64,000 bases of DNA from Methylophilaceae bacterium (GTDB lineage Bacteria; Pseudomonadota; Gammaproteobacteria; Burkholderiales; Methylophilaceae): the NCBI GenBank assembly GCA_028342535.1, contig JAOLWQ010000002.1:97484-161483 (forward strand), in the 5' to 3' direction. The notes beneath the pieces are model-generated. The model saw only the letters and a program-made list of their open reading frames with translations. It was not told the DNA's origin and made no database searches. Positions 29,741 through 31,645 of this stretch are shown in pieces. Both the position numbers and the translations under genes were made by a program. The number at the start of each line of letters is the position of its first letter. Positions within the stretch are counted from its first letter, which is position 1.

Positions 29741-29874
29741 TTATAATTAATATAGTTGAGTCATAAGGTGGTGTTAAAATTCATTTATGATAAATTAAAT
29801 GTTCAAAAATTATACCATGCAACTTTTTTAGTTTTACAATCTTAAATTAATAAAAATAATAAGAGAGATTTTCC

Positions 29875-30444
29875 ATGAAAAATATACTTAAAATAATAGT
29901 CTTAAATTTATTGCTCCTAATAAGTATTAGTAGTTTTAGTAAAGATTCTAATACGTTCATCATTGAAACTAATCGAGGCAATATAACAATCGAGGTTTAT
30001 CCAAAAAAAGCACCTAAAACAGTAGCGAATTTTAAGACGTATGTTGCTAATGAATTCTATAATGGACTTATTTTTCACCGAGTCATTAAAAATTTTATGA
30101 TACAAGGTGGTGGTTTTGATAAAAATATGATGCAAAAGAAAACGAATGATCCAATTATTAATGAATCCAATAATGGGCTTAAAAATAAACCTTATACATT
30201 AGCAATGGCACGAACGAATGATCCTAATTCTGCTACCTCTCAGTTTTTTATTAACTTGATTGACAATAGTTTCTTAAATTACACTGGTAAAAGCTCAAGT
30301 AAAATAGGTTATTGTGTTTTTGGTAGAGTAGTTGAAGGAAAAGATATTGTAGATAAGATAGGTCAATATAAAACACATTTAAAAAATGGGCAAAGCGACG
30401 TACCCATTAAAAAAGTCGTCATTAAATCAATCAAACAAAGGTAA
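29875..30444 (+). CDS. ppiA: Periplasmic peptidyl-prolyl cis-trans isomerase (cyclophilin)
   Basis: Cyclophilin of 189 residues with an N-terminal signal sequence (about residues 4-22, cleavage near SFSKD) and the active-site arginine in FHRVIKNFMIQGG. QFFIN and FGRV motifs follow. It is probably a periplasmic protein-folding catalyst. The next gene encodes a cytoplasmic paralogue and starts 6 bases later, so the pair likely arose by tandem duplication. A GAGAG ribosome-binding site precedes the ATG. Confidence 0.92.
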   Translation: MKNILKIIVLNLLLLISISSFSKDSNTFIIETNRGNITIEVYPKKAPKTVANFKTYVANEFYNGLIFHRVIKNFMIQGGGFDKNMMQKKTNDPIINESNNGLKNKPYTLAMARTNDPNSATSQFFINLIDNSFLNYTGKSSSKIGYCVFGRVVEGKDIVDKIGQYKTHLKNGQSDVPIKKVVIKSIKQR

Positions 30445-30450
30445 TTATAA

Positions 30451-30933
30451 ATGAAAATTAAAACAAACTTTGGTAGCTTTTCTTTAGAACTGGATGAGGT
30501 AAAGGCTCCGCTATCATCAAAGAACTTTAAGGAATATGTTGAGAAAACTTTTTTTAACAATACTATTTTCCATCGAGTAATAGATGGATTTATGATTCAA
30601 GGTGGTGGGTTTGAATTAGATATGACTCAAAAAGAAACTAATGCTCCCATTAAAAATGAAGCGAGTAATGGGTTAAAAAATGAAAAATATACTATCGCAA
30701 TGGCGAGAACGAGCGACCCAGATTCTGCAACCTCCCAATTCTTTATTAATACATCTAATAATAGTTTCCTAGATTATCCAGGGCAAGATGGTTCTGGTTA
30801 CTGTGTTTTTGGTAAAGTCACTGAAGGTTTTGATGTTATCGATAAAATTAATTCAGTTAAGACAGGTTCTAAAAATGGACACCAGGATGTTCCTGTTGAA
30901 CAAGTAATTATTGAGGAAGTAACAGCTGATTAA
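30451..30933 (+). CDS. ppiB: Cytoplasmic peptidyl-prolyl cis-trans isomerase (cyclophilin)
   Basis: A 160-residue cyclophilin without a signal peptide; it starts directly in the fold (MKIKTNFGSFSLEL). Active-site FHRVIDGFMIQGGG, AMARTSDPDSATSQFFIN and GYCVFGKV are conserved. It closely resembles its upstream neighbour, which has the signal peptide. Its last codons overlap the probable start of lpxH, a ppiB-lpxH pairing also seen in E. coli's wider neighbourhood. Confidence 0.95.
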   Translation: MKIKTNFGSFSLELDEVKAPLSSKNFKEYVEKTFFNNTIFHRVIDGFMIQGGGFELDMTQKETNAPIKNEASNGLKNEKYTIAMARTSDPDSATSQFFINTSNNSFLDYPGQDGSGYCVFGKVTEGFDVIDKINSVKTGSKNGHQDVPVEQVIIEEVTAD

Positions 30934-31645
30934 GGTTGATACAAGTGCTCTATTCGTTTCTGATACTCACTTAAGTGAGGATTCGCCAACTATAATTAAT
31001 AAATTTAATAATTTTTTAGAAACTCATGCTAACAAGCATGAGTTTCTATTTATTCTTGGTGATCTTTTTGAATATTGGATTGGTGATGATGCTAATCAAT
31101 TCAATTCGGTAATAACAACACTTCATAAATTAAATACTAAAATTTATTTTATTCCAGGCAATAGAGATTTTCTTATTGGATCAGATTTTTTAAATAAAAC
31201 TAACATGACTCTTCTTGAAGATCACACCTTAATTCAACTTGGAAATCAAAAAACTGTAATTCTTCATGGTGATACTTTGTGCACTGATGATAAAGATTAT
31301 CAAGAATTTAGAGCAAAGGTTAGGTCAGAAATTTGGAAAAAAGATTTTTTAAATCAAAACATTCATACTAGGTTAGAAATTTGTAAAGAGCTAAGAAAAA
31401 AAAGTAATGCGGCTCAAAAAAATAAAAGTGAAATCTTAATGGATGTAAATGAGAATGAAGTAGAAAAATTATTTAGAAATTTAAGCTTTCCTTCAATAAT
31501 GATTCATGGCCATACCCACAGACCAAAAACACATAACTATCTTTTAGACAATAATGCATGCGAAAGATGGGTTTTAAATGATTGGTATGATTCTGAAAGT
31601 TACTTGATTTGGCAGGATAATCAATTAAACTCCAAAACATTATAA
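30926..31645 (+). CDS. lpxH: UDP-2,3-diacylglucosamine diphosphatase, non-ATG start
   Basis: Calcineurin-like hydrolase that makes lipid X in lipid A synthesis. All N-terminal metal motifs lie upstream of the first ATG (31205): FVSDTHL (DxH), GDLFEYWIGDD and GNRDF; the later HGHTHR and HGDTLC follow. The frame is open only from 30923 and has no ATG, GTG or TTG before 31205. Initiation is therefore probably at CTG 30926, with GAGGAAG upstream at 30913-30919, or ATT 30929, which overlaps the ppiB stop. From 30926 the product is 239 residues, the normal LpxH length. The gene is intact; only the start is unusual. Confidence 0.88.
   Translation: MIKVDTSALFVSDTHLSEDSPTIINKFNNFLETHANKHEFLFILGDLFEYWIGDDANQFNSVITTLHKLNTKIYFIPGNRDFLIGSDFLNKTNMTLLEDHTLIQLGNQKTVILHGDTLCTDDKDYQEFRAKVRSEIWKKDFLNQNIHTRLEICKELRKKSNAAQKNKSEILMDVNENEVEKLFRNLSFPSIMIHGHTHRPKTHNYLLDNNACERWVLNDWYDSESYLIWQDNQLNSKTL
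30966..30979. repeat. 14-base perfect palindrome in lpxH
   Basis: CTCACTTAAGTGAG, a palindrome without spacer, 40 bases after the presumed CTG start, covering codons for DTHLS of the first metal motif. It lies 37 bases before the longer hairpin at 31017. Confidence 0.65.
31017..31048 (+). repeat. 14-bp perfect hairpin in lpxH
   Basis: Arms 31017-31030 (TAGAAACTCATGCT) and 31035-31048 are exact complements with an AACA loop, followed by TTTATT. It resembles a weak intrinsic terminator but lies inside the coding frame, in codons for LETHANKHEFL between two conserved motifs. Confidence 0.85.

Follow-up and report, generated by a model that had tools for sequence, protein, structure and literature searches.

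The window analysed here is a 64,000-nucleotide stretch of contig C11 of a Methylophilaceae genome (1.19 Mb, 17 contigs, 93% complete). The genome belongs to the HTCC2181 group of Methylophilaceae, which we take to be the streamlined marine bacteria called OM43 in titles of the literature. The gene lpxH overlaps the end of ppiB, and the region contains the following features.

30451..30933, + strand: ppiB, cyclophilin-type peptidyl-prolyl isomerase (PF00160, 155.6 bits); its stop codon TAA, 30931-30933, overlaps the lpxH start region
30913..30919, + strand: GAGGAAG, putative Shine-Dalgarno sequence of lpxH within the ppiB coding sequence (duplex with the 16S 3' end, -6.9 kcal/mol)
30926..31645, + strand: lpxH, predicted UDP-2,3-diacylglucosamine diphosphatase, 239 codons plus stop when read from CTG (NF003743 and TIGR01854 above cut-off; nine solved LpxH)
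30926..30928, + strand: CTG, probable start codon of lpxH (the same in all 18 subclade genomes, no change on the tree)
30929..30931, + strand: ATT, codon 2 and rival start (not invariant in the 18 genomes)
31205..31207, + strand: first in-frame ATG, likely a mis-annotated start (no Shine-Dalgarno sequence, +1.6 kcal/mol; codon position not conserved)

Two cyclophilin genes stand in tandem 5' of lpxH, at 29863-30444 and 30451-30933. A hydrophobic N-terminus makes the product of the first look exported, unlike that of the second.

Direct reading of the sequence places an in-frame TAA at 30920-30922, and the lpxH frame is open from CAG 30923, with CTG 30926-30928 next and ATT 30929-30931 after it. 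No ATG, GTG or TTG occurs before the ATG at 31205, which is codon 95 of the open frame. The motifs FVSDTHL, GDLFEYWIGDD and GNRDF are all encoded between the CTG and this ATG. The original prediction had described this frame, the three upstream motifs, the GAGGAAG and the overlap of ATT 30929 with the ppiB stop, and all its coordinates are confirmed. Also as predicted, initiation at CTG gives an LpxH of 239 residues, and reading from 31205 gives a protein of 146 residues that lacks the motifs. Among the 67 open reading frames of at least 120 residues in the window, chance frames included, lpxH is the only one in which more than 30 codons (94) precede the first ATG, GTG or TTG.

The product is by its sequence an ordinary LpxH, UDP-2,3-diacylglucosamine diphosphatase. 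It passes the profiles NF003743 (273.1 bits, curated cut-off 134) and TIGR01854 (233.4 bits, cut-off 190.35) and is the single match in its own genome. Nine solved LpxH sequences align to the open frame from residue 8 or 9 to residues 224-229, with E values of 1.1e-46 to 1.6e-42.

Conservation of lpxH and of its CTG codon

An lpxH match is present in 27 of the 31 genus genomes, and the other four are 50-84% complete. The loci include those of Methylophilales bacterium HTCC2181, Methylophilaceae bacterium AH-273-G03 and Methylophilaceae bacterium LSUCC0401. The LpxH protein tree of the 27 divides into a subclade of 18 with the window (support 90/89) and a sister subclade of nine (100/99). Proteins of the 18-genome subclade are 49-83% identical to that of the window. 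The metallophosphoesterase motifs SDxH, GDLFxxWxGDD, GNRD, HGDxLC and IHGHTHR are found in all 18 aligned proteins. The C-terminal tail of one protein (L014, genome G029) departs from the other 17 in a frameshift-like manner.

The part of the gene upstream of the first ATG is maintained. For ten pairs chosen by hand, dN/dS from the CTG to the window's first ATG is 0.105-0.439. The rest of lpxH has values of 0.076-0.367, lower than the upstream part in seven of these ten pairs. All ten upstream values are below 0.5, showing at the level of codon substitution that the codons behind the CTG are under purifying selection. The backup enzyme LpxI was found in none of the 31 genus genomes, while the same search found LpxI in Caulobacter among 14 control genomes. 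An lpxB match is present in 24 of the 31. With lpxB present and LpxI not found, LpxH should therefore be needed. The lpxB of two sister-subclade genomes (G008:C1:634401-635495 and G011:C43:296-1390) has one in-frame TAA within the family match.

The same in-frame CTG is found in all 18 subclade genomes, HTCC2181 and AH-273-G03 included. Ten codons separate it from the SDxH motif, except in L010 and L012, where eleven do. At codon 2, 13 genomes have ATT, four have ATA and one (L011) has TTA, and therefore the invariant codon is CTG. The original prediction had named CTG 30926 and ATT 30929 as candidates and proposed aligning the loci of relatives at 30926-30931; this alignment retains the CTG and speaks against the ATT. 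In 14 of the 18 genomes there is no ATG, GTG or TTG in the open stretch 5' of the motif. In the remaining four (L002, L004, L010 and L014) the sole canonical codon before the motif is a TTG five codons 5' of the CTG. The Shine-Dalgarno energy of this TTG is -2.7 to +0.6 kcal/mol, whereas the CTG in these four genes has -6.2 to -6.9. Usable canonical start codons are therefore missing from the subclade. The position of the first in-frame ATG ranges between codons 73 and 195, and this scatter, together with the missing Shine-Dalgarno sequence at 31205, leaves the truncated protein unsupported.

The codon itself is rare. CTG accounts for 58 of 1903 leucine codons (3%) in 57 window ORFs and for 17 of the 456 other leucine codons in the 18 lpxH genes. 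The five other invariant leucine columns of LpxH hold 3, 4, 4, 4 and 3 different codons, and each requires 5-7 changes on the subclade tree, where the start CTG requires none. Out of 52 invariant, degenerate amino-acid columns only two have an invariant codon, the start CTG and one phenylalanine TTT. Any single-base change of the C would create ATG, GTG or TTG, and none of these is found in the 18 genomes. Conservation of the CTG thus goes beyond coding need within the 18 genomes; the CTG is missing in five of the nine sister genomes.

Shine-Dalgarno sequence and overlap with ppiB

A good Shine-Dalgarno sequence at proper spacing precedes the CTG in all 18 genomes, with duplex energies to the 16S 3' end of -6.0 to -6.9 kcal/mol. 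The first ATG of 56 window ORFs has a median of -1.4, and only two of the 56 have -6.3 or lower. Of 1000 random 17-mers, 5% reach -5.0 and 1% reach -7.1, which counts against the weight of this feature. The GAGGA is spaced 8-9 nt from the CTG and 11-12 nt from codon 2. RNA structure around the lpxH start gives z values of -0.29 and -0.49, nothing special.

In every one of the 18 genomes the ppiB coding frame extends across the lpxH start, covering both the CTG and the ATT in the window. It does so in two different frames. In nine genomes ppiB reads the start region as NCT-GAT, with TAA directly next in eight and further on in L014; here the C of the CTG is the second position of a ppiB codon. 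In the other nine ppiB reads NNC-TGA, or NNC-TGT-TAA in L011, and the C is a ppiB wobble base. The codons ending on this C encode different residues (CTC and GTC three times each, AGC, ACC and GCC once each). The sequence CTGA overlaps a ppiB TGA in eight of the 18 genomes, and CTGATTAA carries the ppiB TAA in eight. In the codon use of the window, C makes up 8-11% in the five fourfold boxes counted, and AGC is 123 of 393 AGC/AGT codons. The subclade tree requires three or more switches of the ppiB frame across the CTG, which is retained throughout. Judged from these alignments, ppiB coding would hardly hold the CTG letters in place, and dual coding and a frameshift fusion are therefore disfavoured.

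Sister subclade, other genera and the initiation machinery

The original prediction had named an ATG at the same codon in relatives as evidence against an unusual start. None of the 27 genus genomes has one at that codon. In eight of the nine sister-subclade genomes an in-frame ATG lies four codons 5' of the aligned CTG position, with a Shine-Dalgarno energy of -0.9 or -1.0. The aligned place itself is CTG in four of these eight, with poor Shine-Dalgarno values (-0.2 to +0.4), and AAA in the other four. A CTG start is therefore not indispensable in the genus. The sister ATG arises from ppiB codons GAT-GAA in five of the nine and AAT-GAA in four, where the window's subclade has GAG-GAA or GAG-GA(C/T). 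The GAT form of five sister genomes, with its ATG and poor Shine-Dalgarno sequence, is one base apart from the GAG form with Shine-Dalgarno sequence and CTG; the AAT form is two bases apart. The ninth sister genome (L027, G016; single contig) has a stop after the relatives' ATG, and before the motif it has no canonical codon and no CTG, but two ATT codons. From the sequence, its lpxH would have to start at ATT or similar, the ATT codons being likeliest.

Beyond the genus, an LpxH match is found in 138 of 150 genomes drawn from the family, 118 of these outside the genus. The lpxH start was read in 80 of the 118, and a canonical codon lies near the motif in 77 (among them three in which the script found no motif and a methionine is visible in frame). 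The three with no canonical codon make up the whole of genus g6 in the 150-genome draw. In each of them six codons separate a CTG from the motif, a CTGA lies over the ppiB TGA and the Shine-Dalgarno energy is -5.1 to -9.5. This genus is G+C-rich and CTG is, by impression, not rare there; the argument rests on the absent canonical codons. Three further family members (L019, L021 and L028) have an ATG start. In one set of 112 loci, 17 (15 genomes, two of them twice) have no canonical codon, all in the genus of the window; five loci had no motif and were left unjudged. In the small-genome genus g38 of the same family, a TTG lies eight codons before the motif of lpxH, at the same place in 13 of 13 genomes read (L143-L155).

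The gene for initiation factor IF3, infC, is matched in 28 of the 31 genus genomes. All 26 loci read (L113-L138) have an in-frame ATA at one and the same position ahead of the conserved N-terminus; L139 and L140, which are incomplete matches, are outside this set. The codon before the ATA is ACT, GCT, AGC or GTT. From the known infC pattern we infer that this ATA is the infC start in the genus, and the comparison with infC made in the original prediction was apt. An altered initiator tRNA was considered as the cause of CTG use and rejected: a normal GGG-CTCATAA-CCC anticodon stem is present in 21 of the 31 genus genomes, HTCC2181 (G015) included. A search with the whole initiator tRNA matches 24 of the 31 at E 0.001, some weakly or partly. 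Neither the anticodon stem nor the whole tRNA gives a match in the window genome (G000) or its nearest relatives G004 and G028. This absence, shared by close kin, is probably a gap in incomplete assemblies.

Taken together, the alignments make it very likely that lpxH initiates at CTG 30926, and likely that the CTG is retained by selection. Four other explanations were weighed. The CTG may be the start and yet have no regulatory purpose, the ppiB stop and last codons or a mutation bias fixing CTGA. The CTGA over a ppiB TGA and the CTGATTAA with its TAA, each in eight of the 18 genomes, are consistent with this, as is the ATG in eight of nine sister genomes. Against it, ppiB uses the C as a wobble base in nine genomes and as a second codon position in nine, the ppiB residues differ, the ppiB frame has switched at least three times, and ATG, GTG and TTG, each one base away, never appear in the 18. 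We regard this explanation as improbable, though it is the strongest of the four.

A start at ATT 30929 in the manner of infC, with the CTG merely upstream sequence, fares worse and has only a slim chance of being correct. It draws on the ATT or ATA that follows the CTG in 17 of the 18 genomes, on the ATA of infC in the genus and on the two ATT codons of L027. However, L011 has TTA at this place, and ATT and ATA alternate whereas the CTG never varies. Given that ppiB reads the CTG in two frames, an ATT start would not explain the invariance of that codon, and the GAGGA would lie 11-12 nt from the start rather than 8-9. Programmed frameshifting at the overlap, yielding a PpiB-LpxH fusion, fits the ppiB frame that crosses the lpxH start in all 18 genomes, but is highly implausible since the required shift is +1 in nine of them and -1 in the other nine. 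In an incomplete assembly of 17 contigs one might suspect a sequencing or assembly error, or else gene decay with reading from ATG 31205, but this can be practically discounted with an identical CTG in 18 genomes (the HTCC2181 and AH-273-G03 records among them), upstream dN/dS below 0.5 in ten pairs, conserved catalytic motifs and a first ATG scattered over codons 73-195.

A proposed weak start codon and its known counterparts

For a start at CTG 30926, the ordinary initiator tRNA would read the codon, and the protein would begin with formyl-Met followed by Ile-Lys-Val. The GAGGA in the last codons of ppiB would position the 30S subunit on the CTG. As the ppiB stop is on the start, lpxH initiation is probably coupled to ppiB termination, and initiation at the CUG could be by ribosomes that have just completed ppiB or by 30S subunits docked on the GAGGA. 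On CUG, initiation complexes have lower stability than on AUG, GUG and UUG, according to excerpts of PMC11497404. Output per mRNA should therefore be low and fall with IF3. Overexpression of many lipid A enzymes is toxic in E. coli (PMC4807358, in part), and a reason to hold LpxH low therefore exists. The CTG would then most likely be kept as a weak, IF3-discriminated start that keeps LpxH low, and the strong Shine-Dalgarno sequence would prevent its level from dropping too far.

We propose attenuation and IF3 control of lpxH through its CTG only tentatively. The fuller version is likewise speculative: a selected CUG attenuator, fixed in at least two Methylophilaceae genera at the ppiB stop, would throttle lipid A synthesis and tie it to IF3 and to ppiB translation. 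CUG is considered an especially poor start codon. If the proposal is true, start-codon weakness itself is selectable, as the CUG kept on an essential envelope gene would show, and lipid A synthesis could belong among the IF3-sensitive processes. For annotation, gene finders restricted to ATG, GTG and TTG would shorten LpxH here; in the window 146 residues would remain, and the first three catalytic motifs would be lost. Invariance of a codon under a changing overlapping frame offers a simple comparative test for more such genes.

Several known systems resemble the lpxH start. Like lpxH, infC has a conserved non-canonical start on an essential gene. However, infC controls its own product, IF3. 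The lpxH gene, by contrast, encodes an enzyme and is not known to be connected with IF3; the codon is CTG, and the start lies inside the upstream gene. Stop-start overlaps of the type ATGA or TTGA, with termination-reinitiation, are a known arrangement. The CTGA of lpxH is alike, but it is non-canonical although ATGA, GTGA and TTGA are each one base away.

CUG starts are rare in bacteria. They account for 20 annotated ORFs, or 0.024%, in 69 genomes (quoted in a portion of PMC9845219), and in a reconstruction of 68,906 starts four changes led to CUG (PMC5622118, in part). By the latter figure a subclade-wide CUG is therefore unusual. The lpxH case differs from these rare starts in that CUG is retained in a single gene throughout a subclade and is also all that a second genus offers at that place. 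In the open-access literature, the matches listed contain nothing that joins a CTG start codon with lpxH; for OM43 start codons, for non-canonical or non-AUG starts and for ppiB with lpxH, the matches listed likewise hold nothing on this case.

A further counterpart is sigR of Streptomyces, as described in excerpts of PMC5472188. It combines a strong, conserved Shine-Dalgarno sequence with a conserved weak start, as lpxH does, its GTC being present in 32 of 34 species. The likeness extends to a stoichiometry-sensitive operon and to annotators having chosen a canonical codon. IF3 represses the GTC start, and this control is proven for sigR, whereas for lpxH it is a prediction. The two also differ in that sigR is a regulator, the upstream gene of its pair and starts with GTC, while lpxH is the downstream gene, starts with CTG and belongs to another phylum. 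Very few bacterial starts outside ATG, GTG and TTG have been characterised by experiment, according to the same excerpts. On its comparative sequence evidence, the lpxH start joins infC and sigR among the few non-canonical starts conserved in bacteria.
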